Translations under genes and position numbers: made by a program
Part shown: one piece after another, positions 30,532 to 46,159 of the stretch
How positions within the stretch are numbered: position 1 is the stretch's first letter
Layout of the letters: each line of letters begins with the position of its first letter
IMG/VR virus record: IMGVR_UViG_3300007541_000030
Span: 1 to 50,278 of that record
From: a virus
Length of the DNA: 50,278 bases
Reading direction: 5' to 3' (one strand)
Notes under the pieces: model-generated
Told to the model about the DNA's origin: nothing
What the model saw: only the letters and a program-made list of their open reading frames with translations
The model's database searches: none

Positions 30532-31461
30532 TTAGCTACGTGCGAGTTCTTTAAAGATTGAAAGATCGTCGTCATCGTCATCGTCAGCAACTGCACTCGT
30601 TTGTGCAACTGCTGCTTCAGGAGCAGGAGCGGATTTAAGATTGCTTAGATCCAAATCGTCGTCCTCGTCAGTTTCATAAGATGAAGGAGCTGCTTGCTCT
30701 ACAGTGTCCGCAGCAAGATCAAGTACTCGATAGAGCTTGGTCTTAAGTTCTGCATAGGACTTGAAGTTCTTAGGATCAAGAAGTTCTTGTAGAGAATGCT
30801 GAGTCTTCCAAACTTGTTCCATCTTATCGTCATCATCAAATAGAGGCTCTGGAGCATCAAACTCAGACTTGTCGTAGTTAGGATAACCTTCGAACTGTCG
30901 AATCTTTAGGCGGAAGTTTGCACCTTCCCAAAGATCAAACGGATTTACTGGTTCCTCATCTTCAAAAGTTGGGTTCATAAGATCGTTCAACTTATCAAAG
31001 ATTTTCTTACCGAAAGCGTATAGGAATACTTTACCTTCGTTTTCTGGGTTTGCAGGATCCTTTAGTACGTAGATGTTTGAAACGTACTTCAGCCTGCGCT
31101 TTTGCTTACGAGCTTGGTCTTTGTCAGACTCGACACCTGAGTTCCAGAGCTTAGAGTTAAACTCAGAAACTGGATCGTCTTGACCGAGAGTGGTAAGCGA
31201 GTTTTCAATGTACCAAAGGCCGGTAGGACCTTGGAATCCGTGATCCCATACACGAACAAAAGGCATTTCCTCGCCTGGAGCTGCAGGTAGGAAACGAATG
31301 ACTGCGAAGCCGTTACCAGCTTTGTCACGAGTAGGTTTCCAAAACTTGCCTTCGTTAGGATCTGAATAGGATTTGGTTGAGATTTTCTCGAGTTGAGCGT
31401 TCAGCTTTTCGAGAGATTTGTTACGATTCTTCTTGAGAGAAGCGAAATCGGTAGGTGCCAT
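30532..31461 (-). CDS. 32: single-stranded DNA-binding protein, T4 gp32-like
   Basis: 309 residues. Basic N-terminal LEKLNAQLEKISTK (cooperativity region), OB core with GFAVIRFLPA, HGFQGPTGLWYIENSLTT and YVSNIYVLKDP, and an acidic tail with runs of Asp ending SIFKELARS. The T4 zinc ligands are missing: where T4 has C-P-V-C after SLTT, here it is DDPVSEFN. The same loss is known in cyanophages. Expressed from a promoter inside gp59 and possibly from a late box. Confidence 0.92.
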   Translation of the reverse strand: MAPTDFASLKKNRNKSLEKLNAQLEKISTKSYSDPNEGKFWKPTRDKAGNGFAVIRFLPAAPGEEMPFVRVWDHGFQGPTGLWYIENSLTTLGQDDPVSEFNSKLWNSGVESDKDQARKQKRRLKYVSNIYVLKDPANPENEGKVFLYAFGKKIFDKLNDLMNPTFEDEEPVNPFDLWEGANFRLKIRQFEGYPNYDKSEFDAPEPLFDDDDKMEQVWKTQHSLQELLDPKNFKSYAELKTKLYRVLDLAADTVEQAAPSSYETDEDDDLDLSNLKSAPAPEAAVAQTSAVADDDDDDDLSIFKELARS

Positions 31462-31548: not shown

Positions 31549-32151
31549 TTAGAAAAAGTGGCCACGGATAATATCCTTGAACTTTTTTTCATCATACACT
31601 AGGAAGGGCTTATACTTCTTAGCAAGTCTTATTATATCACGCGACACGATTTTGTCAACTATTTTTTCACTCCAGTATGAAAATATTTTTGCGGTATGAG
31701 CAAGAATAGTGAAAGTCTCTAGCGAGATTTTCTTCTGACTGTACAGTGTCATAATATAAGGATGTTGTCCATCACGTGATACAAAGTTGAGTTGATAGTC
31801 ACTATATAAGTGATACAACTCGGATTTGAAAACATAACTCAGAGAGTCTTGCTTTCGCTTCCATTCGGTGTATCTGGCTTCGGCTTCTTCATCGAGAATT
31901 TCGCGAACCCAGATTTCTGGTTTGACGATCATGTTCGCGAGGATTAGGTTTTCATAATCATCGCGTTTCGCTAGCTTAGCGAAAAAGTATGCGTCGTTTC
32001 TTCCATTGAATGTGTCAAATGAAGCTCTGATCTTTCCGTTGTACTTGAAGTAGTCGTAGGAATCAGAAGTAAAATGCTTTTTGAGGGCGAGGTATTTTAC
32101 GTAGGCTTCAAATGATCGATCATTCACATAGGTCTGTGAGATCTGTCTCAT
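31549..32151 (-). CDS. 59: helicase loader, T4 gp59-like
   Basis: 200 residues. SFEAYVKYLALKKHF, GRNDAYFFAKLAK and LILANMIVKPEIWV, with a C-terminal domain containing ISLETFTILAHTAKIF, follow the T4 gp59 pattern. The protein loads gp41 onto gp32-coated DNA. The ATG overlaps gp33 by 32 bp; a GTG eight codons downstream (VNDRSFEAYV) would remove most of the overlap and is a plausible start. Confidence 0.88.
   Translation of the reverse strand: MRQISQTYVNDRSFEAYVKYLALKKHFTSDSYDYFKYNGKIRASFDTFNGRNDAYFFAKLAKRDDYENLILANMIVKPEIWVREILDEEAEARYTEWKRKQDSLSYVFKSELYHLYSDYQLNFVSRDGQHPYIMTLYSQKKISLETFTILAHTAKIFSYWSEKIVDKIVSRDIIRLAKKYKPFLVYDEKKFKDIIRGHFF
31631..31658 (-). promoter_or_regulatory. sigma70-like promoter inside gp59 gene, upstream of gp32
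   Basis: Minus strand TAGTTGACA, 16 bp, TATAAT in the 3' end of the gp59 gene. It would supply gp32 independently of the gp33-gp59 transcript. Confidence 0.75.
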
Positions 32152-32359
32152 CTTTTCTTACCATCTTCAATTTGATAGCTTCAGATTTTACTTTCTCTCG
32201 AAGTATCGAGGACTTCTTAACGATCTGAGCTATCGTTTCAATTTCAACATTGTTCTTTTCGGCAAAGTCAACTAGCGCGTCGATATACGGCACGCCTCTG
32301 GAAATGTGCTTAGAGATTTCATGATGGATTTTGTCGGGTGTCATTGCTACAACTGACAT
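32120..32359 (-). CDS. 33: late transcription coactivator, T4 gp33-like
   Basis: 79 residues of helical type: HHEISKHISRGVPYIDALVDFAEKNNVEIETIA matches the gp33 core of marine T4-like phages, bridging RNA polymerase to the sliding clamp at late promoters. Its presence supports the reading of TATAAATA boxes. I chose the ATG with GGAG upstream. An ATG nine codons earlier would coincide with the predicted transcription start and have no leader. Confidence 0.8.
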   Translation of the reverse strand: MSVVAMTPDKIHHEISKHISRGVPYIDALVDFAEKNNVEIETIAQIVKKSSILREKVKSEAIKLKMVRKDETDLTDLCE

Positions 32360-32394
32360 TTCTGTTTCTTCTCCGGTATTTTTCATGAGTATCT

Positions 32395-33141: not shown

Positions 33142-33849
33142 TTAAACAATTTCTTCGAATAGAACGTTCTCGACGTATTGATCTTTGCGATCTTCTTCGA
33201 TACCCATAGCTAAAATAGAACCGTGCAGCATCTTGTTCATCTTCTGGTTTCTGCAATACTTGTTCTGTGCTTCTTTAGTGTTGAGGCCTTCTTTCTTATA
33301 GTTAGTGTTGTCGCACTCAGCTAAGTAGAACTGTATAAGATGAAGTGCCATCTCGCAGAGTTGATCAGTTTCTTCGCCTTCTCGAATACTACCTGCACCG
33401 ACGATGTTCTCAGAGAAAATCTCTTGAGCCCAGTCTGGCATTTCACGAGCTCGAGTCCAAGAAAGATCTTTTACTAGAAACTCAAACTTATCTAAGTAAG
33501 GATGCGGTTTGGTTTCAGTAGTAGGCGAGTAGTCACAGAAACATCCACTGATCTTATTAGGATTAGCTACAATGTCTAGACCGAAGATCGGAAGATCTCG
33601 GTCAAACTGAGGAAAGATATTGATGTGCATCAACCAGAGATTTTTATTTTTACCGAATCCTGGTTCAATTGTTTTAATGTGGCACTTACGAATCGATTCT
33701 GAACTATAGAAAAAATCATACCAGCCCGGAAGATCCTTTACATGTTTGTCGTTCTCATACTCAACCATGTGAGTTTCGAAAACATGTCGTATTTCTTTCT
33801 CGAGCTTTCTTAGTCTTTCAAATAGTTCAGAATGTACCAAGTACTCCAT
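33142..33849 (-). CDS. pcyX: ferredoxin-dependent bilin reductase (PcyA/PcyX type)
   Basis: 235 residues, typical FDBR length. Reduces biliverdin IXalpha using ferredoxin electrons. Conserved core: LWLMHINIFPQFDRDLPIFGLDIV with H75 and D92, matching PcyA H88 and D105, then NKISGCFCDYSPT. The mix fits the PcyX group described from uncultured marine viruses, which makes phycoerythrobilin, but PcyA- or PebS-type products cannot be excluded from sequence. The ATG overlaps the heme oxygenase stop (TAATG), so translation is coupled. No ferredoxin gene is seen in the window. Confidence 0.87.
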   Translation of the reverse strand: MEYLVHSELFERLRKLEKEIRHVFETHMVEYENDKHVKDLPGWYDFFYSSESIRKCHIKTIEPGFGKNKNLWLMHINIFPQFDRDLPIFGLDIVANPNKISGCFCDYSPTTETKPHPYLDKFEFLVKDLSWTRAREMPDWAQEIFSENIVGAGSIREGEETDQLCEMALHLIQFYLAECDNTNYKKEGLNTKEAQNKYCRNQKMNKMLHGSILAMGIEEDRKDQYVENVLFEEIV

Positions 33850-34481
33850 TACATTTCTTCTTCATCAAAAAAATCGTCATACGTTTGAGCTTCAGCTAGA
33901 AGTGTTTCTGCGCTTTGATAATCTTCTGGGTTATTATTAAGTCTCTCGATCAACTCATGAAATAGTCTTTCTGCATATTCAAAACAGATCTTAGCTTCAT
34001 CAGCCATTCCGTCATGTAGTAGTTCGCGAACTCCGTCTATTAAAGCTTTGCGATTTTCAAACTCGTACATCGTACCACTACCCGGAATATGCTTCTTAAT
34101 CATCTGGCCACCGTGAGCGTCACCGAAGTGACGAACATAGAGGTGTGCAAGAAGAGCATCGTTATCTTCTTCTTCAACGAGTGTTTGGATGTGATGACTG
34201 TACTCGATAGTAGACTGAAGATTATCTTCTACTTCAGGAAGATTGAACAGAGTTTCTAACTCTTGCAAATCTTCTTCCATCTGCGAAGATCTAAAAATAG
34301 GTTCTAATTCAATTGGGATATTAACAGCTGATTCAAGAGCCATATAGTTTTGTAATTGAGCATGGAGAAACTCTTGATAAAGCTTTGGTGGGATGTCGCC
34401 GCTCATTAATAGATCTGCGAACTCTGTGCGTTCTGCATTATCATGATGTTGTTTAGTTAAGTCTTTTAGGTTATTTGCCAT
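33849..34481 (-). CDS. ho1: heme oxygenase (biliverdin-producing)
   Basis: 210 residues. Opens heme to biliverdin IXalpha, Fe2+ and CO. T-K-x-x-H13-x-x-A-E at 9-17 gives the proximal histidine, and YVRHFGDAHGGQMIKK supplies the flexible distal helix with the conserved glycines. C-terminus acidic, no membrane anchor, as in cyanobacterial and phage HO1. First gene of a two-gene operon with the bilin reductase. A TATAAATA box lies about 40 bp upstream of the ATG, pointing to late expression. Confidence 0.92.
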   Translation of the reverse strand: MANNLKDLTKQHHDNAERTEFADLLMSGDIPPKLYQEFLHAQLQNYMALESAVNIPIELEPIFRSSQMEEDLQELETLFNLPEVEDNLQSTIEYSHHIQTLVEEEDNDALLAHLYVRHFGDAHGGQMIKKHIPGSGTMYEFENRKALIDGVRELLHDGMADEAKICFEYAERLFHELIERLNNNPEDYQSAETLLAEAQTYDDFFDEEEM

Positions 34482-34520: not shown

Positions 34521-34532
34521 TATTTATAAATA
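34521..34532. promoter_or_regulatory. palindromic bidirectional late promoter TATTTATAAATA
   Basis: The 12-mer contains TATAAATA on both strands (34521-34528 read on minus, 34525-34532 on plus). It lies about 40 bp from the heme oxygenase ATG on one side and about 40 bp from the 52-residue plus-strand gene on the other, so it could fire the bilin operon and the Fe-S carrier operon together. Confidence 0.6.
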
Positions 34533-34571: not shown

Positions 34572-34730
34572 ATGAACACCGAAGAAGCACGTTATCTCGA
34601 AAAAAGAATAGAAAAACTAGAAGAGTGGTCTCACCCTCCGGTTGCTCCAGGTGGAACTACTGAGCTACTAGAACTTATTCACAAACTAGAAAAAAGAGTG
34701 GAGCAGCTCGAAAATGATAGAGCTAACTGA
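34572..34730 (+). CDS. small coiled-coil protein
   Basis: 52 residues, too short for usual gene finding: MNTEEARYLEKRIEKLEEW, a HPPVAPGG turn, then a second heptad helix ending QLENDRAN. It has GAGGT before its ATG and overlaps the A-type carrier gene by 17 bp, so it is probably the first gene of that plus-strand operon. Function unknown. Confidence 0.6.
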   Translation: MNTEEARYLEKRIEKLEEWSHPPVAPGGTTELLELIHKLEKRVEQLENDRAN

Positions 34731-35031
34731 TGCAGCAATATCTAAAGCGATTGAAAGAACGGCAAGAGCGGGCAAAAATGATATCAGACTTGGTGTTACT
34801 GGCGGGGGTTGTGCTGGTTATAAGTATGTCATTGAGCTTGCCGATAATATTAGCGAAAATGATATTCTGATAGACTACGGAAAATTCGGAATAGTAGTCG
34901 ACAAAGATTCTATGCAATTCCTTAAAGGCTCGCGACTCGACTGGGTCAGAGAAGGACTAAACGAACAGTTTAAAATTATCAACCCTAACGAAGGATTTTC
35001 GTGTGGGTGTGGTGTAAGTGTTACTTTTTAA
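34714..35031 (+). CDS. A-type iron-sulfur carrier (IscA/ErpA-like)
   Basis: 105 residues with all three ligand cysteines: C33 in GGGCAGYKY and C97/C99 in SCGCGVSV. Carries or delivers Fe-S clusters to client proteins. Such genes occur in marine T4-like phages. Here it is divergent from the heme oxygenase-bilin reductase operon; ferredoxin, the reductase's electron donor, is an Fe-S protein, so a functional link is attractive but unproven. Heme oxygenase also releases Fe2+. Confidence 0.9.
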   Translation: MIELTDAAISKAIERTARAGKNDIRLGVTGGGCAGYKYVIELADNISENDILIDYGKFGIVVDKDSMQFLKGSRLDWVREGLNEQFKIINPNEGFSCGCGVSVTF

Positions 35032-36160: not shown

Positions 36161-36286
36161 TTAAATTCTTTCACCTTTATCTATGCGTCTAGAAATTTGC
36201 ATAAACTCATTCCACCTATAAAACTTCTTATTCACATGGCACCAAAATAGACCTTGGTAATGTGGATCATCATTTTTATTCTTCAT
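36161..36286 (-). CDS. hypothetical 41-residue protein
   Basis: Starts MKNKNDDPHYQGLFWCHVN; basic and aromatic-rich. Chosen because GGAG precedes the ATG; a longer frame would run deep into the glutaredoxin gene. Overlaps the glutaredoxin 3' end by 11 bp. Function unknown. Confidence 0.5.
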   Translation of the reverse strand: MKNKNDDPHYQGLFWCHVNKKFYRWNEFMQISRRIDKGERI

Positions 36287-36527
36287 TATTATAATCTCCT
36301 TCTTCCAATTTGTCAATATACTGGATAAAATCTGTGTACCACCCGATGTGTTTATCATTATGAAAAACACATGGAAATTCAATTCGAGTACTCAATCGTT
36401 CTTTTAACTCGTTATAGTTATCTATAATTGAGGTATCTTTGTATTCGTATTTTATGTTTAGGTTGTTGCAGACTTTTTTAATTTTTACACAATACTCACA
36501 ACCGCGGACACCGTATATCGTAATCAT
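36276..36527 (-). CDS. glutaredoxin
   Basis: 83 residues with CEYC at 10-13 and FPCVF in place of the usual T-V-P cis-proline motif, which lowers certainty about substrate. A second, free glutaredoxin in addition to the one fused to NrdB. One base after the 2OG oxygenase gene, so probably coexpressed. Confidence 0.8.
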   Translation of the reverse strand: MITIYGVRGCEYCVKIKKVCNNLNIKYEYKDTSIIDNYNELKERLSTRIEFPCVFHNDKHIGWYTDFIQYIDKLEEGDYNNEE

Positions 36528-36528
36528 T

Positions 36529-37278
36529 TTAGTAGAATAATAATGACGGATTAATGTGCATATTTGGCATTGTGGCTTGTTTTTTCAAATCATCAATTTC
36601 AGATTCCATTTCTCTAATTAAGTCTACTCCATTAGTATACTCGATCCAACTCGTAACAATGTACTTATCTTTTTCTGGCGATCTTAGACCACGATGCCAA
36701 AATGGAATGCCCGCTGGTATGATTAAAACTCTTCCTGCTTTAGGTTTAACCTTTAGACCAGCGAGTGGTATTTCGGTTTCTCCTTCTACTTCAACATCAT
36801 TGAGATAAATGATAGGCGCCAGAAATCTGTAGATAACAGAAGGTCCTTCTGATTCGATATGAAGTGCAGGATAACCTACCTCTTTCTTTTTATATCTTTG
36901 AACTTGCAAAGAAGTAATTGTTTGCTTTGTCGTATGAAACGGAGTATGTTTCGCACCTGCCATATCTGCCATGTCAAACACATACTTATGAGAGCTAGAC
37001 GTAACTGCAGAAATTAGTCTGTCATGTATTTCTCTGTAAACTTCTGGTTTATGTACTGGAGTAAAGAAAGCATTACTAGATGCTTGCTTCCATAGAAGCT
37101 GAAGATCTGTTGACTCTTTTACTCGACGATCAACGTTTCCTGCAAAACCGCTAGAACCTTTTGAAGTGAGTTCTAGCTTATCGCACTCTTCAAAGTACTC
37201 TATAGTTTTTTCACAAATATCTAAAGGAACAACGTCATCATATATTCCAATTAGCTCTGATAGTTTTCTATCAATCAT
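36529..37278 (-). CDS. 2-oxoglutarate/Fe(II) oxygenase-like protein
   Basis: 249 residues. C-terminal double-stranded beta-helix pattern: YPALHIESEGP (H-x-E in place of H-x-D), AGRVLIIPAGIPFWHRG with distal histidine, and a closing arginine-containing strand. Resembles phage prolyl-4-hydroxylase-like proteins; target unknown. The changed acidic ligand is still compatible with iron binding. Confidence 0.65.
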   Translation of the reverse strand: MIDRKLSELIGIYDDVVPLDICEKTIEYFEECDKLELTSKGSSGFAGNVDRRVKESTDLQLLWKQASSNAFFTPVHKPEVYREIHDRLISAVTSSSHKYVFDMADMAGAKHTPFHTTKQTITSLQVQRYKKKEVGYPALHIESEGPSVIYRFLAPIIYLNDVEVEGETEIPLAGLKVKPKAGRVLIIPAGIPFWHRGLRSPEKDKYIVTSWIEYTNGVDLIREMESEIDDLKKQATMPNMHINPSLLFY

Positions 37279-37284
37279 ATTAAC

Positions 37285-37875
37285 CTATTTTTCGAGTCGT
37301 GGTTTTGATATGTCGTAAAGCGTGTCTTCTGCAATGAATCTTAATGAAATTATTTTTTGATTGTGTTTATGAGATGAAAGGACTATTTTTGTAAGCTCTT
37401 CATAATCTCTAGTTATCGCAATAAAACCGTTCACTGCTTGTGTGTATTCTTTTTCTGCATGACCATCTAAAATTGTAACACTCTTTATTTCAGGAGGTAT
37501 ATTGCTAAGAGTTACTTTTGTACCTACTGGAACATTAATTCTGTTTTGAAAGACTAATGCGGGCTCATCATCTTCGTGCCAATAAGGATCTGTGTTTGCT
37601 GAAATAATAAAAGGTTCAACGAATGGGTGGGAAGTCACTAATTCTATTTCTTTTTTCGGTAAAGTCTCATAAGTTTTTGTATCAAAATAATGTTCAGTGT
37701 CTTCTATACCAGAAAAAGTTTCGCCTTCTTGTAATGAAAGAATCATTATGGTATTGTTTGCTTCGTCTTGATAGATAACAGGCCTGTTATCAGATAAATC
37801 GTCGTCTCTTCCAGTACAAATGATTTCACCTGTCGTGTGATTAACGACTATATAATTATCTGTGTTTGCAGACAT
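37285..37875 (-). CDS. hypothetical protein, possible virion-associated
   Basis: 196 residues, acidic, beta-rich, no recognised family. The start is the ATG in TAATG overlap with the upstream structural-type gene; a longer frame needs TTG. Placed between two 2OG-oxygenase genes and a fibre-like gene, so it may belong to the same virion or glycan module. Confidence 0.5.
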   Translation of the reverse strand: MSANTDNYIVVNHTTGEIICTGRDDDLSDNRPVIYQDEANNTIMILSLQEGETFSGIEDTEHYFDTKTYETLPKKEIELVTSHPFVEPFIISANTDPYWHEDDEPALVFQNRINVPVGTKVTLSNIPPEIKSVTILDGHAEKEYTQAVNGFIAITRDYEELTKIVLSSHKHNQKIISLRFIAEDTLYDISKPRLEK

Positions 37876-38435
37876 TATAAACAACCTTGATTAAAGTTAA
37901 CGTTGTAATTAAATCCGCGGTTTACTGAAGTAGTACCATCGCTTACGTTTACGTTATATACTGCATTCCTATTAAATTCACCTGAAGCGTTCGTGCTGTT
38001 ATTATTTGCAAAAATGTTGATGTTAGCCGCGGTTTGATTATCGATGTTCTGAAATCTTACAATTATAGAACCACTCTGAGAATTAGGCCCGTCCCAATCT
38101 CTGTTATAAGAGCCATTTCCTCCAGAAACAGATAAATTAGTAGTTCTGTTTATACCCATAGAGTATGGTCTACTGCAATCTACTCTGCCCGCAAACAACA
38201 TTCCTATAGATGCAGATACTGGTGTATACGCGCTCGTACCATAAAAATTAGAAAACGCAATTTGTCCGCTTGACGGAACATTCGTAGCAGTATTAGGAAC
38301 ATAGCCGGCTCCTCGATAATATTCAGAGAGCTCGTCTTGGCCTGGTGTATTACCGAATTCTGATGATATGTTTCTATTCGCAGGTTGATTTGCTGGAATA
38401 CCTAATTCTAATGTTCCTGAATTTACTAACGCCAT
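37875..38435 (-). CDS. fibre-like virion protein
   Basis: 186 residues, Asn/Ser/Gly-rich. N-terminal ANRNISSEFG, DELSEYYRGAGYVPN and IAFSNFYGTSAY are hallmarks of a domain found at the start of many phage tail-fibre proteins. The rest is a beta-rich polar stretch. Start ATG follows GAGGGA; overlaps the prolyl-hydroxylase-like gene by 10 bp, suggesting that this enzyme might act on the fibre. Confidence 0.65.
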   Translation of the reverse strand: MALVNSGTLELGIPANQPANRNISSEFGNTPGQDELSEYYRGAGYVPNTATNVPSSGQIAFSNFYGTSAYTPVSASIGMLFAGRVDCSRPYSMGINRTTNLSVSGGNGSYNRDWDGPNSQSGSIIVRFQNIDNQTAANINIFANNNSTNASGEFNRNAVYNVNVSDGTTSVNRGFNYNVNFNQGCL

Positions 38436-38965
38436 GCTGGTCCCTCTATCCAAGTTACTAATGATAGCCTTTCACCGCTTGTCACCGGAGTAATTGAATG
38501 AAACATCATTGACGGAAAAATGATTACACTTCCTTTGTCTCTAATTCTATCGCCGACTTCTTCTGTATTGTCATGCTGAAAAACTAAATCGCCGCCTTCA
38601 TAATCATCAGAATTAGAAAGTTGTACGATCATTGTAAGTTTACGTTGAAATGGATAATCGAACCAACCAACGTCTTGATGCATTTCGTACTTGCCACCTA
38701 CACTATATTTAAGTAGCTCAATTTGTGAAATAGTACTAACATCGAAGCCAAAATTCTTATTTTCTATTTTTGCTATGTACATCAAGATACCAGCCAACCA
38801 CGCGTGGCGATGAACATTAAAATTAATCTTGTCAACCGATCTCATATCAAGATCTAGTCCAGAAGCAACCGCACCAGAAGTCCATTGCACTTCATTTGAC
38901 AAGTTTAAAATTTTATCAATAATAGAATCATCTAGATGTTGATGAAGGAAAGCATAACCTTTCAT
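38426..38965 (-). CDS. 2OG-Fe(II) oxygenase, prolyl-4-hydroxylase type
   Basis: 179 residues with the complete facial triad: YEMHQDVGWF (H-x-D), FHSITPVTSGER (distal H and the 2OG-binding R), and GGDLVFQHD between. PiuC/P4Hc-type enzymes of this size are frequent in T4-like marine phages. Substrate unknown. Translationally coupled to the fibre-like protein downstream. Confidence 0.85.
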   Translation of the reverse strand: MKGYAFLHQHLDDSIIDKILNLSNEVQWTSGAVASGLDLDMRSVDKINFNVHRHAWLAGILMYIAKIENKNFGFDVSTISQIELLKYSVGGKYEMHQDVGWFDYPFQRKLTMIVQLSNSDDYEGGDLVFQHDNTEEVGDRIRDKGSVIIFPSMMFHSITPVTSGERLSLVTWIEGPAWR

Positions 38966-38996
38966 AATATACTCCGATTACTTTTACGAATATTTA

Positions 38997-39203
38997 TTAT
39001 TCAGTAAGCAATTGGATAATCCCGTTTTCCCAATTCTCAGCTACATCTTCTGCGTAGTGTCGATTGTGGCCAGGAAGATCTCGACTTTGAACGAGCTTTC
39101 CATTTTCATAGAGATCGACAACATACATGCTATCACCACCAGCAGCTACGTTGTCTGTAGCCACTAAGCGAACGTTCGCTTTTCTACCACTTACTTTATC
39201 CAC
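38997..39203 (-). CDS. conserved small hypothetical protein
   Basis: 68 residues: YVVDLYENGKLVQSRDLPGHNRHYAEDVAENW is a small alpha-beta unit found in other large phages, function unknown. Overlaps the following SH3-like gene by eight bases. Confidence 0.6.
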   Translation of the reverse strand: MDKVSGRKANVRLVATDNVAAGGDSMYVVDLYENGKLVQSRDLPGHNRHYAEDVAENWENGIIQLLTE

Positions 39204-39462
39204 CTAGTACCTCCCAGGATTGAACAGCGTCTAGTCTAAAACTACGCCAACCTTCTTTGTCAGTACACCAAACAGCCATAACATCTTCGTTACGAGGCCT
39301 CACGTCTTTTACATTATCTGAAGTACCGTAGGCTTCAAGTACGGCTGGGTTTAACGTACAAGGCATTACACGAATTTCACCGGTGCTTACCTTTTGAAAC
39401 GTTACCGTTACTGTACCTTTGCGCAGAGCTTCTACCAAATCTTTCTTTTCATTCGAATCCAT
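39196..39462 (-). CDS. small SH3-like (WYL-associated type) conserved protein
   Basis: 88 residues: VTVTFQKVSTGEIRVMPCTL, then VWCTDKEGWRSFRLDAV. This is a short beta-barrel family common in T4-like phages (SH3-like, similar to DUF2693). Role unknown, maybe nucleic-acid or protein binding. Confidence 0.65.
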   Translation of the reverse strand: MDSNEKKDLVEALRKGTVTVTFQKVSTGEIRVMPCTLNPAVLEAYGTSDNVKDVRPRNEDVMAVWCTDKEGWRSFRLDAVQSWEVLGG

Positions 39463-39468
39463 AATCAG

Positions 39469-39645
39469 TTACTCCTCAACTTTTTTCATTATCACTAAAC
39501 ACTTGCCTTCGAGAGTAACTTGTATTAAGTCACCCTCGTTAAAGCCAGCTTCTTCACATATTTCCGGAGGTATCGTCATTAAGATATTCTCAGGATCATC
39601 TTCAATATCAGAAAAAATTTCTTCGTATGCGTATACACGTGACAT
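39469..39645 (-). CDS. AbrB/SpoVT-like small DNA-binding protein
   Basis: 58 residues, below usual size cut-offs. LMTIPPEICEEAGFNEGDLI followed by VTLEGKCLVIMKK is the swapped-hairpin AbrB/MazE pattern (I-P-x-E-x(4-5)-G-x-x-E/G-D). Could be an antitoxin-type or transcription regulator; no toxin partner is visible next to it. Preceded by AGGTG. Confidence 0.6.
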   Translation of the reverse strand: MSRVYAYEEIFSDIEDDPENILMTIPPEICEEAGFNEGDLIQVTLEGKCLVIMKKVEE

Positions 39646-39664
39646 TCTATAACACCTTTCTGAT

Positions 39665-39741
39665 TGGCCTCCTCAGAGAGATTCGAACTCCCGACCTTCT
39701 GGTTCGTAGCCAGATGCTCTATCCAACTGAGCTATGAGGAG
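39665..39741 (-). tRNA. tRNA-Arg, anticodon ACG
   Basis: 77 bases with encoded CCA. Acceptor CTCCTCA/TGAGGAG, D-arm GCTCAGTTGGATAGAGC, anticodon loop CTACGAA, T-loop TTCGAAT. A34 needs deamination to inosine by host TadA to read CGU/CGC/CGA. Unusual among phage tRNAs. Confidence 0.92.
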
Positions 39742-40034
39742 ATAAAACTACTAAATATTCTTGTCCAGAAATCCATCCACCATTGACCGTGTTGTCTCAT
39801 TATACCCATGCTGAGTACAAAGAACGAAACACCGTTCAACAAGATGAGGGCTCGATCTTCCCAAAGAAGTGAGACCCATAACCATAAACCTATTCCAATT
39901 GTTCCTACGTACATGTCGAGTTCTCTAAACTCTGGTCCTGCTGCTCGGGCACAAATTGATATTAGTACTAGTATTGAAGCAATCCACTTAACGTACCAAT
40001 CAAGTTTCTTTTCGCCCTTTTCAGATTTTATCAC
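39732..40034 (-). CDS. small multi-span membrane protein
   Basis: 100 residues with three hydrophobic segments (about 15-32, 40-58, 63-80). A short membrane family common in large phages, function unknown. GTG start in TAGTG overlap with the upstream stop. Its last 10 bases overlap the tRNA-Arg gene. Confidence 0.6.
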   Translation of the reverse strand: MIKSEKGEKKLDWYVKWIASILVLISICARAAGPEFRELDMYVGTIGIGLWLWVSLLWEDRALILLNGVSFFVLSMGIMRQHGQWWMDFWTRIFSSFISS

Positions 40035-40207
40035 TAAAGTAGTACATCCTGACTTAAAATATTTGCTGTAGGAATATCAATCGAATATCCATCAATACGT
40101 TTAACGAAAGTTGTAGTATCATCTACGTCATACACCCAACCTACAACTTCTAATTCAACATCTTCTTTTACTGGGTGTTTGTATTTAATTCTTACCTTAG
40201 CTTCCAT
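40034..40207 (-). CDS. small beta-rich protein
   Basis: 57 residues (MEAKVRIKYKHPVKEDVELE, then GWVYDVDDTTTFVKRIDG). Below common size cut-offs; AGGAG precedes the ATG. Looks like a tiny SH3-like barrel. Coupled to the membrane protein by stop-start overlap. Function unknown. Confidence 0.6.
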   Translation of the reverse strand: MEAKVRIKYKHPVKEDVELEVVGWVYDVDDTTTFVKRIDGYSIDIPTANILSQDVLL

Positions 40208-40216
40208 AGGATTCTC

Positions 40217-40447
40217 CTAGAATATCGTCGACTCTCCACCATAGAATTTAATAATGAGCTTCAAAGCGTCGATATGTTTTTGAATCTGAACTGCATCTTC
40301 TTCTCGATCATGACTAAACACACCAAGATAATCATCATCGTCGACATCTTGTTTAAGATTGTTTACTAAACTATCTATATTATCATTCAATTCACTAATA
40401 ATAATCTTGTCGACCTGTTCAGGTTCAAGTGTAAATGTCATATGCAT
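40217..40447 (-). CDS. conserved small hypothetical protein
   Basis: 76 residues: acidic helix, DDYLGVFSHDREEDAVQIQKH and IIKFYGG. A recurrent family in large phages, unknown role. Two in-frame ATG codons lie at the start (MHM); the first is kept. Confidence 0.6.
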   Translation of the reverse strand: MHMTFTLEPEQVDKIIISELNDNIDSLVNNLKQDVDDDDYLGVFSHDREEDAVQIQKHIDALKLIIKFYGGESTIF

Positions 40448-40450
40448 AAT

Positions 40451-41161
40451 TTAAAACTCCTTCAAAAGATCCCATGTATGTTGCCAAGATTCTACTTGAT
40501 TCACCTTTCCAAGGTTTCCAAGTTGAATCACTAAGGCTATAGAATAATCATTTCCACCATGTTCTGTTCTGTCACCAAAGAAGTGGATGTAATCGTAAAC
40601 ACCTTCGAAATCTTTAATGATCTGAGATTTGTCTGCACCCTTGGGATAGATGTCAATACTGATGTGGCCACCGATTGAAGCGTACAATTCTTTAAACTTT
40701 CTATTCAACTCGTCAGCGATGTGCTCTCGCTCTTTGTGTTTCTTATCCCACTCGTAATAAGCTTGTCTCTGCTGCTGATTAGCGTCGCGACCTACAGTAC
40801 TGAAGTTAATCATTCCAGTACGCATTTCGATATGATTGTCAGTTTTAAAAGGATACTTACTATGATGAAGCTTATTCTGGAGATAGTGCTTAAGTTCGTA
40901 AGAAGGTTTCCATCCGTTCGTCTTAACGCGACGATTGTGATACCAATGCTCGTTACCATTACACTGATAAACACCTAAGCAAGCATCATATATTCGCTGA
41001 CCCACTTGTTCTAGTGTTTTCGGTCGATCACTACCAGAGACAAGAAATACTGGATTGTTTTGACAAAAATTATAAAACCAAGATTCAAATTCTGGATCGA
41101 TAGTCTGTCTCGCTGGCGTGAGCGTTCCATCTACATCAAAAACAAAAACTGGATTCGTCAT
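40451..41161 (-). CDS. phosphomannomutase-like HAD phosphatase/mutase
   Basis: 236 residues, like eukaryotic-type phosphomannomutase. FDVDGTLTPAR with nucleophile D9 and acid D11, VSGSDRPKT, a cap with MINFSTVGRDAN, then SIDIYPKGADKSQII and FFGDRTEHGGNDY for metal and phosphate binding. Would convert hexose-6-phosphate to hexose-1-phosphate for nucleotide sugars, which fits the glycan operon elsewhere. Simple phosphatase activity is an alternative. Confidence 0.85.
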   Translation of the reverse strand: MTNPVFVFDVDGTLTPARQTIDPEFESWFYNFCQNNPVFLVSGSDRPKTLEQVGQRIYDACLGVYQCNGNEHWYHNRRVKTNGWKPSYELKHYLQNKLHHSKYPFKTDNHIEMRTGMINFSTVGRDANQQQRQAYYEWDKKHKEREHIADELNRKFKELYASIGGHISIDIYPKGADKSQIIKDFEGVYDYIHFFGDRTEHGGNDYSIALVIQLGNLGKVNQVESWQHTWDLLKEF

Positions 41162-41298
41162 AGTAAACTCACAATCACGACAATAAACATAGCCCAGATA
41201 GGTAAAGAAATAGCCAGGCCGACAATGATTCCTTTCCAGAAGTTGTCATCGTCATAATGCTGTAGCGGTTTTCCTTCGTATCTTTCTTCTTTATCCAT
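41158..41298 (-). CDS. small membrane protein
   Basis: 46 residues: charged N-terminus, then one hydrophobic helix (GIIVGLAISLPIWAMFIVV). ATGA overlap with the phosphomannomutase-like gene. A longer frame would run into the tRNA-Ala gene and is rejected. Function unknown. Confidence 0.55.
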   Translation of the reverse strand: MDKEERYEGKPLQHYDDDNFWKGIIVGLAISLPIWAMFIVVIVSLL

Positions 41299-41312
41299 AA
41301 TATAATTCCGAA

Positions 41313-41388
41313 TGGTGGACCTGACAGGGGTCGAACCTGCGACCTCCTGCGTGCAAGGCAGGCGCTCTCCCAACTGAGCTACAGGCCC
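41313..41388 (-). tRNA. tRNA-Ala, anticodon TGC
   Basis: 76 bases with encoded CCA. Acceptor GGGCCTG/CAGGTCC (one G-T pair), D-arm GCTCAGTTGGGAGAGC, anticodon loop CTTGCAC, T-loop TTCGACC. Reads GCA and GCG. Confidence 0.94.
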
Positions 41389-41390
41389 AT

Positions 41391-41498
41391 CTAATCTTTA
41401 TCTTTAAATTCTGTGTTTTCAAGCAAATCCCAAATAAAACATCCTAAAACAACACTTGTAACCACAATAATACTTACTATTATGTATATGCCTTCCAT
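41391..41498 (-). CDS. tiny membrane protein
   Basis: 35 residues, one hydrophobic helix (IIVSIIVVTSVVLGCFI) and a charged tail. It fills the gap between two tRNAs exactly. Only weak evidence beyond the membrane-like composition; the ribosome site is poor. Confidence 0.35.
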   Translation of the reverse strand: MEGIYIIVSIIVVTSVVLGCFIWDLLENTEFKDKD

Positions 41499-41512
41499 AC
41501 TACTTCTTATAT

Positions 41513-41588
41513 TGGTGCCGAATGCAAGAATCGAACTCGCGACCTTTCGCTTACAAGGCGACTGCTCTACCTGCTGAGCTAATCCGGC
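41513..41588 (-). tRNA. tRNA-Thr, anticodon TGT
   Basis: 76 bases with encoded CCA. Acceptor GCCGGAT/ATTCGGC, D-arm GCTCAGCAGGTAGAGC, anticodon loop CTTGTAA, T-loop TTCGATT. One weak pair at the top of the anticodon stem. Reads ACA and ACG. Confidence 0.93.
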
Positions 41589-41599
41589 ATAAAACTTCT

Positions 41600-41779
41600 T
41601 TATTCTCCCTTGGCAAAGTGAAGTCGCTTCTCAACGAATTCTCTTACCTTTTGTTCTGTGTACCAAAGACCACTAAACATTTGTGTACTGTCAGGCCACT
41701 CAACAATATATCTTTTATAGCCAAAAGGACGCTCTACAAAAATTCTAGCGTCTCCATAATTTTCTACTAATAACCTCAA
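41600..41779 (-). CDS. small hypothetical protein with TTG start
   Basis: 59 residues: RLLVENYGDARIFVERPFGY, WPDSTQMFSGLWYTEQKV. The TTG overlaps the upstream TGA stop and is preceded by GAGG, so translational coupling makes the start credible. A T-Q-x-F-S/W-Y domain of this kind looks protein-like rather than random. Function unknown. Confidence 0.5.
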   Translation of the reverse strand: MRLLVENYGDARIFVERPFGYKRYIVEWPDSTQMFSGLWYTEQKVREFVEKRLHFAKGE

Positions 41780-42018
41780 AGGTAATCCTCTAACTTAGGA
41801 AGAGGTACCGTTTCTTGCTTAGGACCTTCTTTAATAACAGCATTAATGTAATTGTTATAATCTGCTAGCATAATCGCAAACTGTTCATTTTCTTTTGCTA
41901 AATTTCTCAACTCAACTTTTCCAGCTTGTCCTCTTTGCCAAGCGCTATGATCGTCACTGTATTCGTAAAACCAATCGTGACGTCTTAGCATGTCGAAGTA
42001 TTCCTCAATAGTGAGCAT
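41776..42018 (-). CDS. conserved small hypothetical protein
   Basis: 80 residues: MLTIEEYFDMLRRHDWFYEYSDDHSAW is a short motif seen in many phages; helical remainder. Function unknown. Overlaps the coiled-coil gene upstream by 14 bp. Confidence 0.65.
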   Translation of the reverse strand: MLTIEEYFDMLRRHDWFYEYSDDHSAWQRGQAGKVELRNLAKENEQFAIMLADYNNYINAVIKEGPKQETVPLPKLEDYL

Positions 42019-42223
42019 TCATAGCCTCCTTGAGTCTCGTAATTTCTTGTTGCAATTCATTGATTCGTTTGTATGCGGCATATTTACCAGCAGTTTCTTC
42101 AGCTATCAACTTATCTTTTAGAGAAAGCTCAGTTTCAAGGCGAACGATGTGTTTCTGCTGATCACAAAGTTCTAGTCTTAGCTTCTCTTCAAGAGTATCA
42201 TTTAAGCTAAAGTTCTGTGGCAT
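42005..42223 (-). CDS. coiled-coil hypothetical protein
   Basis: 72 residues with continuous heptad-like leucine and isoleucine spacing. First gene behind the promoter at 42253-42281, with GAGGT before the ATG. Function unknown. Confidence 0.6.
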   Translation of the reverse strand: MPQNFSLNDTLEEKLRLELCDQQKHIVRLETELSLKDKLIAEETAGKYAAYKRINELQQEITRLKEAMNAHY

Positions 42224-42252
42224 AACAATCTACCTCAACGTTTATGGTACCA

Positions 42253-42281
42253 ATTATATATCATGTATCTCTAAATGTCAA
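42253..42281 (-). promoter_or_regulatory. sigma70-like early promoter
   Basis: Minus strand TTGACA, 17 bp, TATAAT, followed by TGGTACCAT, a palindrome shared with the promoter at 45899-45927. Drives 42223 and the genes and tRNAs downstream to about 39.0 kb. Confidence 0.85.
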
Positions 42282-42284
42282 TAG

Positions 42285-42350
42285 TTTTTTTAAAAAAAGT
42301 GTGGGGCACGACCGAGTAGTCCCAATCCTTATCCACATTATCTGCCCCAC
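42285..42350 (-). terminator. intrinsic terminator
   Basis: Minus strand stem GTGGGGCA/TGCCCCAC with a 34-base loop, followed by ACTTTTTTT. It would end transcripts coming from the tRNA-Pro side just before the promoter at 42253-42281. The loop is longer than usual for an intrinsic terminator. Confidence 0.6.
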
Positions 42351-42505
42351 CCGATCAGGTTGGTAGTGCGCAGTGACTACCTGAGGACTTACAATGCCAG
42401 CTGACTCACCCCGATCGTAGTCCGCCACACTACAACCATTTACCCTACCACCGTAGCGTAGGCGCCGATTTGAGCATCGTTGAGAGGCTTGGCGGGTGCA
42501 TTGTT
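42301..42505 (-). ncRNA. candidate structured non-coding RNA next to tRNA-Pro
   Basis: About 200 bases without a credible CDS, clearly richer in G+C than the flanks. Contains the GTGGGGCA/TGCCCCAC stem, a GGTAGT-N8-ACTACC hairpin (42362-42381), and two related GATCGGG blocks. It runs from the tRNA-Pro 3' end to the T-tract terminator, so it would be transcribed with the tRNAs. Strand inferred from the terminator. Function unknown. Confidence 0.4.
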
Positions 42506-42582
42506 TGGTCTCGGTGGAGAGATTCGAACTCCCGACCCACTGCTCCCAAAGCAGTTGCGCTACCAGGCTGCGCTACACCGAG
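42506..42582 (-). tRNA. tRNA-Pro, anticodon TGG
   Basis: 77 bases with encoded CCA. Acceptor CTCGGTG/CACCGAG, D-arm GCGCAGCCTGGTAGCGC, anticodon loop TTTGGGA, T-loop TTCGAAT. Reads CCA and CCG. Confidence 0.94.
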
Positions 42583-42591
42583 TTTAAAACT

Positions 42592-42954
42592 TTATCCGGC
42601 TGAACGAGTAATAAAGTTCAGACGAATTTTTTGAGGTTCGAAGTACTTAACAATAAGTTCTTCAGCAACTTTTACGTCGACAGTCTTACAACTAAAGATG
42701 TCGATATAGGCATCACCGTTGTGATCAACTAAGTGACCAGTGATGCTAGAAGTCTCAATCATTTGAACAAAACTAAACCCAGCTTTATCTTCAGCATGAG
42801 TAGCGAAGTGTTCAATCATAGGTTCTCCGAAACCGACCATGTCGATAGCGGGAACAAGTTCTTTGATAAAGTTATATATGTTCTCACGGCTAGTAACTTT
42901 ATCTTTACTACAGGCTGCACAATCAAACATAGCGTGATAGCCCCAGTATGACAT
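42592..42954 (-). CDS. speD: S-adenosylmethionine decarboxylase proenzyme
   Basis: 120 residues. Decarboxylates SAM for spermidine synthesis after self-cleavage to a pyruvoyl enzyme. IETSSITGHLVDHNGDAYIDIFSC holds the processing serine in E-T-S-S and the H and C of the active site; length fits phage SpeD. No other polyamine gene is seen here. Start ATG follows GGAG; the longer frame overlaps a tRNA and is rejected. Confidence 0.85.
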   Translation of the reverse strand: MSYWGYHAMFDCAACSKDKVTSRENIYNFIKELVPAIDMVGFGEPMIEHFATHAEDKAGFSFVQMIETSSITGHLVDHNGDAYIDIFSCKTVDVKVAEELIVKYFEPQKIRLNFITRSAG

Positions 42955-42978
42955 TTTTTCAATCTCCAAAAATAAAAG

Positions 42979-43055
42979 TGGCACGCCCGAGAGGATTCGA
43001 ACCTCTGACCGATGGCTTAGAAGGCCATTGCTCTATCCAACTGAGCTACGGGCGC
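42979..43055 (-). tRNA. tRNA-Arg, anticodon TCT
   Basis: 77 bases with encoded CCA. Acceptor GCGCCCG/CGGGCGT, D-arm GCTCAGTTGGATAGAGC, anticodon loop CTTCTAA, T-loop TTCGAAT. Reads AGA and AGG, codons common in AT-rich phage genes. Confidence 0.94.
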
Positions 43056-43067
43056 ATTAAAAGTTTA

Positions 43068-43343
43068 TTAGCCTTTCTTTCGAGAGGCTTTACCGCGACC
43101 TTGCTTTGCGTATAGTTCATTTTCGTGTTCTAAGATCTCAACTACCGCTTCAGTTAGCTCTTTAGCTCGACGAGCATCGACTACATCGCCATGCTCGTAA
43201 ATGATTACCTTATTACCCTGTTTCTGGATAGAACACATAGCTCGCAATGAGCTTTGCTTTGCGTAATTAGTTGCTTCCTGAGTACTAGGAAATTCTTCTT
43301 CGTACTGCGATCCGTTGACCTTTACTACCCACACCTTATTCAT
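43068..43343 (-). CDS. hypothetical protein
   Basis: 91 residues: MNKVWVVKVNGSQYEEEFPST, an alpha-beta domain, then a lysine- and arginine-rich tail (GRGKASRKKG). Unrecognised. Just upstream of tRNA-Arg(TCT). Confidence 0.55.
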   Translation of the reverse strand: MNKVWVVKVNGSQYEEEFPSTQEATNYAKQSSLRAMCSIQKQGNKVIIYEHGDVVDARRAKELTEAVVEILEHENELYAKQGRGKASRKKG

Positions 43344-43358
43344 AATATAGTCCTTCGT

Positions 43359-43787
43359 TTACTCTTCCATGAAAACTTCAACAAGTTTAGTTTGAAGTCT
43401 TCGAGCTTCCTTTTCCCAAGGTTGATCCCAATACTCAGCTTTCGAGTAGTTCTTGTTCTTCCAATGAGTCAGGCTTTCATTCAACTCGCCGCGAACAAAC
43501 TGTTTGACGTGAACGAGTTCATGCGCCAGTGTGCCCAGCCAGTTACCGTATAAAGCGACATCAATAACAAAAGAGCGCTTATCTAAAGATTCACATAGAC
43601 CTTCACATGTTTTCTTGCTGTCTACAAAAACGCTATGATGAAAGTTTACTTGAACCGCAGTTTTCAACCGATCAATCTTTAGTTGTTTCGTAAAACTGTT
43701 AATTGCCTGCAATGCATAAGCTTGCAACCCGTAATCAAGTTTCCCGCCACGTGGCCCAGAAAACGAAACCGTCATATGATTCGACAT
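43359..43787 (-). CDS. HELVH zinc metallopeptidase-like protein
   Basis: 142 residues with LAHELVHVKQFVRGEL (HExxH form) and a following WDQPWEKEARR glutamate that could be the third ligand, as in SprT-like and related small phage metallopeptidases. Substrate unknown. A GATAAATAAC box directly before the ATG might be a late promoter variant but is too close. Confidence 0.7.
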   Translation of the reverse strand: MSNHMTVSFSGPRGGKLDYGLQAYALQAINSFTKQLKIDRLKTAVQVNFHHSVFVDSKKTCEGLCESLDKRSFVIDVALYGNWLGTLAHELVHVKQFVRGELNESLTHWKNKNYSKAEYWDQPWEKEARRLQTKLVEVFMEE

Positions 43788-43797
43788 GTTATTTATC

Positions 43798-43944
43798 CTA
43801 TAGTGATAGTACTAGTAATAAAATAACAAAGATCAAGAAAGCGTATTCCCAAGTAATAGAAATCACTTTGAATGTGAATTTAACTATTACCATTAGGACT
43901 ACGAGTATTAGCCACAGTCCTAATAGTATTGAGAGCGCTTCCAT
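43798..43944 (-). CDS. small two-span membrane protein
   Basis: 48 residues, almost wholly hydrophobic (LLGLWLILVVLMVIV and AFLIFVILLLVLSL) with a short polar turn. ATG in TAATG overlap with the upstream stop. Could be holin-like in size and topology, but there is no positive evidence. Confidence 0.5.
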   Translation of the reverse strand: MEALSILLGLWLILVVLMVIVKFTFKVISITWEYAFLIFVILLLVLSL

Positions 43945-44132
43945 TAATAATCGTCACTGAATCCTATATTATAATTATAATTACCAGTAACTTCACTGAG
44001 ATCAAAATCGTTCACAGTCGAAGTATACAGCACGAAATCTGATTCTTTAGTCAGCTTACGTAGTGAACGCTTATTGCGCTTAAGCTCTTGCTCAGCGATC
44101 TCTACGTCATCATCAAAATAATCAATTGCCAT
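43944..44132 (-). CDS. hypothetical acidic protein
   Basis: 62 residues: AIDYFDDDVEIAEQELKRNKRSLRKLTKES. Unrecognised. One-base overlap (TAATG) with the 111-residue gene upstream. Confidence 0.55.
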   Translation of the reverse strand: MAIDYFDDDVEIAEQELKRNKRSLRKLTKESDFVLYTSTVNDFDLSEVTGNYNYNIGFSDDY

Positions 44133-44467
44133 TAGGCTACCTCCTTCATTTTTTCTTCGAAAATCTCTTTGAGTGTCATCGCTTGCAATTTAGACTTAGC
44201 ACCGATGTGCCACTCGTATTGAGGATTCGAAGTTGCTTCAATTCCACCGTCGTAATCTTTCCAATTGTAGATAGTAACGATGAAAGTTTCATCTTCATAA
44301 GTTGCATCTTGAACGGTGAGAACCCATTCAATATCGACCTTGTTGTCGCCAGACGTGTCGTCATAAGTCGGAGGACCGAATGCGTGAACAAGATCGTCAT
44401 AAGACGCTACTAGGTATCCCTGTAAGGATGTACCACTACCGTCTCCTGATTGATATACTTTATACAT
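44132..44467 (-). CDS. conserved small hypothetical protein
   Basis: 111 residues: YLVASYDDLVHAFGPPTYDD, VDIEWVLTVQD, FIVTIYNWKDYDGG. A recurring family in large phages, function unknown. First gene after the promoter at 44498-44526; the longer frame runs into the leader. Confidence 0.65.
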   Translation of the reverse strand: MYKVYQSGDGSGTSLQGYLVASYDDLVHAFGPPTYDDTSGDNKVDIEWVLTVQDATYEDETFIVTIYNWKDYDGGIEATSNPQYEWHIGAKSKLQAMTLKEIFEEKMKEVA

Positions 44468-44497
44468 AACTAAAACCTTTTCCAACCTTATGATGCC

Positions 44498-44526
44498 ATT
44501 CTACCACGCTCAACTGAAATTGTCAA
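44498..44526 (-). promoter_or_regulatory. sigma70-like early promoter
   Basis: Minus strand AACAGTTGACA, 17 bp, TAGAAT with TGG before the -10. Drives the 44467 gene and those downstream. Confidence 0.85.
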
Positions 44527-44564
44527 CTGTTTTTTTAGATCATTTGGTTATAACTTTATAACCT

Positions 44565-44753
44565 TTAATAACCTTTCGACATGTGAGTGTAGCAGTCAGG
44601 ATCGAACTCGTCTAGACTCTTGCCACAAATGCAAGTGTCAGATTCTTCGAACGAGGGCGCGCCCACCAAGGCGCGAATCTGGTCCTCTGTGTACCTTTGT
44701 TCTCCGCCGCGGATACTCTGTTCCGCTAGAAGACGAATCATCTCATCATTCAT
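44565..44753 (-). CDS. small hypothetical protein with CxC motif
   Basis: 62 residues: YTEDQIRALVGAPSF, then DTCICGKSLDEFDPDCYTH, three cysteines possibly holding a metal. Overlaps the gene upstream by eight bases. Function unknown. Confidence 0.55.
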   Translation of the reverse strand: MNDEMIRLLAEQSIRGGEQRYTEDQIRALVGAPSFEESDTCICGKSLDEFDPDCYTHMSKGY

Positions 44754-44943
44754 TCATATAGTCCTCGTAAATCATGTGCATCAGCGTATCGCGATACTCG
44801 TCCATTTGTTCATTAATATCGCAGCTCGCGTCGATCGGACATGCGTGCTTGCGACCGATCCGCTCGAGCACTTCAAGATCTGACATAGCCGTTACTTCCA
44901 TGATGACTTGGTCTACAATCTGATCGTTAACTAAATTACTCAT
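44746..44943 (-). CDS. small hypothetical protein
   Basis: 65 residues, acidic and helical with two cysteines (HACPIDASCD). Start ATG overlaps the upstream TGA (TGATG). Part of a string of overlapping small GC-richer genes. Confidence 0.5.
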   Translation of the reverse strand: MSNLVNDQIVDQVIMEVTAMSDLEVLERIGRKHACPIDASCDINEQMDEYRDTLMHMIYEDYMNE

Positions 44944-45119
44944 CACTCTTCTCCTTCTGTGAGAGACAGGTACAATTGTTCAACCGTGTCAAGTGCATTC
45001 AGCAACTGAGCACCGGCTACCACATCAATCTCTCCGTGCTCCCGTGCACACAAAACGCAGTTGCGTAAGGCGTCGATGGTGCTGACGCCTTGGATCGGGA
45101 ATTGAACCACATTACTCAT
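44943..45119 (-). CDS. small hypothetical protein
   Basis: 58 residues (MSNVVQFPIQGVSTIDALRN, then CVLCAREHGEIDVVAG). Below common size cut-offs but starts where the upstream gene stops and ends in overlap with the next. Function unknown. Confidence 0.5.
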   Translation of the reverse strand: MSNVVQFPIQGVSTIDALRNCVLCAREHGEIDVVAGAQLLNALDTVEQLYLSLTEGEE

Positions 45120-45319
45120 TAGTAACGCTCCTCCCAGTCGTAATAGAACTTATTGAGCCCAGGAAGTATTTGATCCAGGCCTTCCATGAACGCCTTGTCC
45201 GTCTCATCGACCTTGCCGCGTTTCTCCTGGCGCTCGAGCCTTGCTTCCAAGTCCTCAACGCTATCAAGAAGGCTGCCTATCGATCCCATAATACGATCAC
45301 GAGGTTTGAGGGTCATCAT
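45119..45319 (-). CDS. small hypothetical protein
   Basis: 66 residues, helical (IGSLLDSVEDLEARLERQEKR) with an aromatic tail. Unrecognised. Overlaps its upstream neighbour by four bases. Confidence 0.5.
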   Translation of the reverse strand: MMTLKPRDRIMGSIGSLLDSVEDLEARLERQEKRGKVDETDKAFMEGLDQILPGLNKFYYDWEERY

Positions 45320-45519
45320 CGGTTTATCTCCACATTCACAGAAAAGTTAACGGTTCGAAATTCAGTCTTAAACCGCTCTTCGTAAGCTTCACGTCCGCGG
45401 TCTTTGATGTAATCTCTGTACCATTTTATATAGTCGGACTCACGCCCGAATACTTCGTACACGGGATCATCGGGGTAGTCTTTTTCGAGAACGATATAGA
45501 CTTTACCTTCAACGATCAT
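45316..45519 (-). CDS. small hypothetical protein
   Basis: 67 residues: MIVEGKVYIVLEKDYPDDP and many aromatic and charged residues. Unrecognised. One-base overlap with the gene upstream. Confidence 0.5.
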   Translation of the reverse strand: MIVEGKVYIVLEKDYPDDPVYEVFGRESDYIKWYRDYIKDRGREAYEERFKTEFRTVNFSVNVEINR

Positions 45520-45764: not shown

Positions 45765-45795
45765 ATTCAATACTACCTTTGTATGTGATAGACTA

Positions 45796-45824
45796 ATTCT
45801 AACCGGTGTTTCAGCAATTGTCAA
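45796..45824 (-). promoter_or_regulatory. sigma70-like early promoter
   Basis: Minus strand AACAGTTGACA, 17 bp, TAGAAT. Proximal promoter of the small-gene string starting at 45764. Confidence 0.85.
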
Positions 45825-46133: not shown

Positions 46134-46159
46134 ACACAAGTATTTGATGGAGAACTGTA

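Follow-up and report, generated by a model that had tools for sequence, protein, structure and literature searches.

A heme oxygenase and bilin reductase operon with an invariant active-site lysine in T4-like phages of probably non-photosynthetic hosts

The closest described counterparts of the locus analysed here are the hemO-pcyA/X-valaS cassettes of aquatic phages, published in 2024, in which heme oxygenase (HO), a bilin reductase (FDBR) and in some cases 5-aminolevulinate synthase (AlaS) are encoded by non-cyanobacterial T4-like phages (PMC11480375). The phages of that set are described as pelagiphage-like on the basis of gp13, together with the Methylocystis phage CB_2, and their FDBRs are assigned to PcyX or PcyA*, Asp55 being called PcyX-specific and diagnostic. 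The catalytic triad of PcyA consists of Glu76, His88 and Asp105; Glu76 is regarded as the first proton donor and Tyr238 as its partner (PMC9800206). Glu76 is also necessary for 18-vinyl reduction, and pre-PcyA enzymes, which are without Glu76, produce phytochromobilin and sometimes phycoerythrobilin (PMC10151467). More generally, the relation of structure to function in FDBRs, including regiospecificity, is poorly predictable (PMC13193486).

We analysed a 50,278-nucleotide stretch (the window) of the IMG/VR virus record IMGVR_UViG_3300007541_000030. An initial annotation had recognised HO and FDBR in two adjacent open reading frames; both families were matched and the coordinates are right:

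33849-34481, minus strand: heme oxygenase (HO), 210 amino acids, PF01126 at 6.8e-20, with proximal His13 and the distal-helix motif GDAHGGQ
33142-33849, minus strand: bilin reductase (FDBR) of the Lys type, 235 amino acids, PF05996 at 2.9e-20, with Lys59, His75, Asn77, Asp92 and Tyr225

Against the curated cut-offs, the FDBR scores 73.3 bits (cut-off 31) and the HO, of the HO-1 family, 72.2 bits (cut-off 23). The two genes had been described as fused by TAATG coupling: the TAATG overlap is present, the HO stop and the FDBR start having one base in common, but the genes are not fused. Both sets of residues initially singled out as catalytic hold up on alignment. His13 aligns with the proximal heme-ligand histidine of human HO-1 and HO-2 and is kept in 48/48 unique window-family HOs, while the distal-helix equivalents of HO-1 Asp140 and Gly143-Gly144 are Asp121 (46/48) and Gly124 and Gly125 (48/48 each). 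At the position of HO-1 Ser142, all 48 window-type HOs have a histidine (residue 123; 34113-34115, minus strand), with a possible effect on the heme pocket. Weak coiled-helix similarity of HO residues 141-190 to influenza haemagglutinin was disregarded. In the FDBR, the counterparts of PcyA His88 and Asp105 are His75 and Asp92 (phmmer alignment); these also correspond to PcyX His69 and Asp86 and are invariant in all relatives.

The AlphaFold2 model of the FDBR, built from an alignment of 51 sequences (the window and viral contigs), has a mean pLDDT of 91.3. All PDB fold matches of this predicted structure at E<=0.001 have the FDBR/RCCR fold, two cryo-EM complex entries being counted through what we take to be their PcyA chain. 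In IMG/VR, the window FDBR protein itself retrieved 50 relatives. A profile scan retrieved 409 candidates, and at least 499 were retrieved with a wider profile; PcyX sequences are among them, and the sets overlap. HO lies directly upstream of FDBR in 79/81 window-type loci from independent metagenomes and in 72/75 PcyX-type loci, and the order kept in the 79 window-type loci rules out a chance pairing. No relatives were found on plasmids.

The feature that sets this reductase apart is Lys59, which occupies the column of PcyX Asp55 and PcyA Glu76. Lysine is found there in all 110 unique Lys-type sequences (all 56 of the window group and all 54 of a second group, B), where all 64 PcyX sequences have Asp and all 6 cyanophage PcyA have Glu (unique full-length sequences). 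The column numbering was checked on the PcyX alignment, where Asp55 and Asp86 are in register, and by phmmer, which brings window Lys59 to PcyA position 76. The Lys type has three further fixed positions, Asn77, His209 and Tyr225, the last being the equivalent of PcyA Tyr238; PcyX has Cys, Pro and Phe there with no exceptions. The window enzyme accordingly has the His and Asp of the PcyA triad with lysine in place of Glu76, and has lysine in place of the Asp55 diagnostic of PcyX. The lysine itself could act as a proton donor.

The same separation is seen in phylogeny. In a maximum-likelihood tree of 74 sequences that includes PebS, PcyA and PcyX, the Lys type (window group and group B) lies on one side of a 95/88 branch and PcyX forms its own clade (100/99); Lys type and PcyX come together (99/96) apart from cyanophage PcyA. 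The window FDBR falls in the clade sister to PcyX and not within it. The locus had initially been described as PcyX-type and as an operon of a phage infecting a non-photosynthetic host; the operon and the phage type are supported and the PcyX assignment, taken strictly, is not. PebS and the rows of alphaproteobacterial genome G297 form very long branches in this tree. A quick tree without PebS, G297 and one long cyanophage row keeps the split between Lys type and PcyX (SH-aLRT 90 on the Lys side), with group B not strictly monophyletic. Neither tree contains the CB_2 enzyme or PcyA of the alphaproteobacterial AX clade, and neither fixes the root of the Lys clade relative to the latter. Compared with cyanobacterial and cyanophage PcyA, the window enzyme is alike in fold and in the equivalents of His88, Asp105 and Tyr238; it differs in the lysine at Glu76, in its HO partner, in the absence of photosynthesis genes from the records searched and in its phylogenetic position. 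Pre-PcyA of heterotrophic bacteria is alike in being without Glu76, in its heterotrophic setting and in having HO near, but is without His88, whose equivalent the window enzyme keeps, and has globin and other partner genes; here the two are set apart by published description (PMC10151467).

The genomic site also differs between the two clades. Lys-type cassettes have the order HO-FDBR-gp33-gp59-gp32, the downstream genes in the window being:

32120-32386, minus strand: gp33-like gene, named by position and likeness only
31549-32151, minus strand: gp59 helicase loader (PHROGs)
30532-31461, minus strand: gp32 SSB (PHROGs)

Of 91 window-group loci, 85-90 show this gp33/gp59/gp32 synteny, as do 72-81 of the 85 loci of group B (gp59 alone in 90/91 and 79/85); of the PcyX loci, 0/81 show it within the neighbouring stretches examined. 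The cassette of pelagiphage Mosig (EXVC030M) instead adjoins neck genes. These different neighbours indicate that Lys-type and PcyX cassettes occupy different sites of T4-like genomes. A host origin of the FDBR gene was considered and rejected, as just two of the alpha/proteobacterial genomes sampled, about 780 in number, had FDBRs above the cut-off: in the Rhodobacteraceae MAG Water_Bin34 the matches are T4-like phage contigs, and the second genome has divergent FDBR-like genes. Two divergent FDBR-like proteins (L184 and L186) come from the alphaproteobacterial genome G297; L184, when aligned, is without the PcyA His/Asp pair.

A third gene of the pathway, absent from the initial annotation, lies at the end of the window:

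1-591, minus strand: 5' part of the AlaS gene, cut by the window end, TIGR01821 at 5.3e-73 over model positions 6-196 of 402
604-1854, minus strand: nrdB, with AlaS directly downstream

With this partial gene, all three members of the valaS-hemO-pcyA/X set are represented in the window and, as in published 'broken cassettes', AlaS stands apart from HO-FDBR on the same genome. Full AlaS genes are present in 7 related Lys-type virus records. Among 13 AlaS-bearing records searched, 7 have an FDBR above the cut-off, including records of 170, 201 and 275 kb; five of these FDBRs have Lys and two Asp. Some related records gave no AlaS match (G750 is an example), and no homologue at >=60% identity was found in INPHARED phage records, the best reaching 29-35% and several being annotated as KBL or BioF. 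Together, the window and the 7 Lys-type records argue that this phage lineage has AlaS, HO and FDBR; Mosig, by comparison, has no AlaS. Near the truncated gene, nrdA is found as well as nrdB, and NrdB has an N-terminal thioredoxin/glutaredoxin-like domain (PHROG 22, residues 12-88). Separately, two phage records of 101 kb and 275 kb (L386 and L390) combine an Asp-type, PcyX-like FDBR with AlaS and an alpha-type tmRNA, which suggests that PcyX may not be restricted to pelagiphage-like genomes.

The HO-FDBR operon is preceded by a promoter motif shared with divergent genes:

34521-34532, both strands: overlapping TATAAATA, a bidirectional T4-type late promoter motif (DNA motif search)
34572-34730, plus strand: small coiled-coil-like protein of 52 amino acids, divergent from HO, in 41/91 window-group loci (stretches examined)
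34714-35031, plus strand: A-type Fe-S carrier, IscA/ErpA-like, PF01521 at 5.9e-15, divergent from HO, in 43/91 window-group loci (stretches examined)

TATAAATA is the core of the T4 late promoter. Among unique upstream regions of the window group, it is found on the HO strand in 44/45 and on the opposite strand in 45/45; on the HO strand it is found in 29/45 of group B and 3/53 of PcyX, against about 3% of random stretches. Given this conserved motif, late expression is probable both for HO-FDBR and for the divergent IscA-like gene. Further upstream of the cassette, on its strand, a row of genes (36276-38965, minus) codes for a glutaredoxin, two proteins resembling 2OG-Fe(II) oxygenases and two unknown products.

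The phage type was judged from the window and its relatives. T4-like replication genes in the window include gp32, gp59, a gp41-like helicase and topoisomerase II; neither a terminase nor a capsid gene was recognised in it. Among the matches listed, window gp32 has its highest identities (61%) to Sinorhizobium phages, the topoisomerase is closest to Vibrio phages (about 50%), and the terminase TerL of a related 221-kb phage (G749) is closest to Sinorhizobium phages phiM12/phiN3 (58.6% identity). Close kinship with Mosig-type pelagimyophages (SAR11 phages) is not indicated: the window FDBR and HO are 30.6% and 35.1% identical to those of Mosig, TerL points to the Sinorhizobium phages, and GC content is 40% in the window and on average 37% in window-type loci, against 32% in PcyX loci. 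A permuted tmRNA is present in many group B phages and one window-group phage (L046); where Rfam was run, the alphaproteobacterial model scores best for most of them, with tags such as ANDNFAPSGYALAA. Loci include L282:2768-3076, L291:9724-10075, L046:212-601 and L170:4500-4852, with about 25 more, and in group B the tmRNA, mostly of the alpha type, usually lies immediately upstream of HO. No tmRNA was found in the window, either by ARAGORN over its whole length or by a search of 38900-46200 even at E 5. Three Lys-type T4-like HO-FDBR phage contigs (L170, L171 and L183) are binned in Water_Bin34. The alpha-type tmRNAs, the Sinorhizobium-phage-like terminase and the Rhodobacteraceae-binned contigs together suggest that the hosts are probably Alphaproteobacteria, even though methylophage Melnitz, with an alpha-like tmRNA and OM43 as host, is an exception to inferring hosts from tmRNA (PMC9004378). 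A non-photosynthetic host, as initially proposed, also agrees with the T4-like replication genes and with gene content: no psbA/photosystem, phytochrome PHY or phycobilisome/phycobiliprotein family was found in 12 records, four of them of about 170 kb or more and a fifth, G750, of 183 kb. A phage-encoded bilin acceptor was therefore rejected for these records. An additional feature of the window is an Rfam abiF RNA (RF03085; 42463-42494, minus strand; 45.4 bits against a gathering threshold of 37) adjoining a tRNA-Pro; if a lone copy, it might be a decoy of a host AbiF defence, or else a chance match.

Building on the observed gene identities, conservation, clade, promoter motif and AlaS and on the absence of acceptor families from the records searched, we infer the following for catalysis, product, host and purpose. 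The cassette would probably act as a late-expressed AlaS-HO-FDBR pathway in a heterotrophic, likely alphaproteobacterial cell, releasing Fe2+ and CO and yielding a reduced bilin other than phycocyanobilin, a reading in which we have moderate confidence. More specifically, phage AlaS would supply 5-aminolevulinate and the host would finish heme, which phage HO would convert to biliverdin, Fe2+ and CO; the Lys-type FDBR would then reduce biliverdin with host ferredoxin. A phage 2Fe-2S ferredoxin was considered as electron donor and rejected, since a search of 11 Lys-type records gave no Fer2 ferredoxin and the donor must then be the host's; Mosig, unlike these, has one. With lysine at the Glu76/Asp55 column and His75 and Asp92 kept, 18-vinyl reduction appears unlikely and A-ring reduction plausible, so that the product would most likely be phytochromobilin or phycoerythrobilin. 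Counting against the exclusion of phycocyanobilin, the CB_2 phage FDBR is without Asp55 and yet makes this bilin (PMC11480375).

What such a phage gains from a bilin was called unknown in the initial annotation, and PMC11480375 states the same. The purpose we favour is a turnover of heme late in infection by which iron would be recovered and biliverdin safely removed; release of iron and CO with biliverdin disposal would be the simplest reading, and an action on host phytochromes the alternative. In its strict form, in which heme is degraded for iron (and CO) and FDBR merely clears biliverdin, the bilin itself being useless, we rate this explanation somewhat below an even chance. The lack of a bilin acceptor family in the phage records searched, the divergent Fe-S carrier gene on the common promoter region, and the glutaredoxin and 2OG-Fe(II) oxygenase genes close by all favour it, and iron supply is discussed in PMC11480375. 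It has to contend with cost, as AlaS would make the very heme that HO destroys. To our knowledge, bacteria with HO are also mostly without FDBR. Against the purpose that we favour, the keeping of FDBR is not accounted for by iron recovery alone.

As to the enzyme, it might be a divergent PcyX, that is, a phycoerythrobilin synthase of the pelagiphage kind in which Lys59 has taken over from Asp55. The nearest sequence with a solved structure is indeed PcyX (5owg, PcyX_EBK42635; 6.6e-31, 111 bits, against 52 for PcyA, the next), the clades are sisters, and both represent PcyA-lineage FDBRs encoded directly downstream of HO in T4-like phages of heterotrophs. We nevertheless consider it unlikely given an identity to PcyX of about 29-35%, the other genome site, the loss of Asp55 in 110/110 and the three further exchanges without exception.

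That the bilin alters bacteriophytochrome signalling of the host, through supply of a reduced chromophore or removal of biliverdin, strikes us as improbable. Biliverdin-binding phytochromes are used by many alphaproteobacteria. The CB_2 enzymes are able to chromophorylate a phytochrome (PMC11480375), but a late promoter would leave little time for a regulatory effect and no phytochrome gene was found in the phage records searched. A PcyA-like enzyme yielding phycocyanobilin as in the freshwater phage CB_2 is a quite improbable reading despite that precedent, the retained Tyr225 and the best fold match by E-value (PcyA), because Glu76, needed for 18-vinyl reduction (PMC10151467), is swapped to the opposite charge in all members.

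The heme-to-bilin gene set of this phage is thus ordinary in kind, and what is new is the enzyme clade: it is abundant, its active-site exchange is invariant, it occupies a genome site of its own, and its late promoter is conserved. No mention of the Lys-type clade was found in the main text of PMC11480375 as far as covered, and no description in the literature searched, which comprised main texts of non-subscription papers. As a tentative and rather doubtful extension, the Lys type may be a functionally distinct FDBR class, likely outnumbering PcyX in viral contigs. Lysine would stand in for the acidic first proton donor, and the bilin, made late in alphaproteobacterial infection from phage-boosted heme, would differ in identity or in the order of reduction from what is known of PcyA, PcyX, PebS and HY2.

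A large phage clade encoding AlaS, HO and a Lys-swapped reductase under a late promoter, with no photosystem, phytochrome or phycobiliprotein gene found, turns the vague puzzle of bilin genes in phages of non-photosynthetic bacteria into testable questions. The late timing counts against a role in early host take-over, and the lysine exchange amounts to a natural experiment on what makes an FDBR reduce one double bond and not another. Should the bilin prove to have no use, with iron or CO as the actual benefit, or should it instead influence how the host senses light, the published puzzle would be settled in either case.
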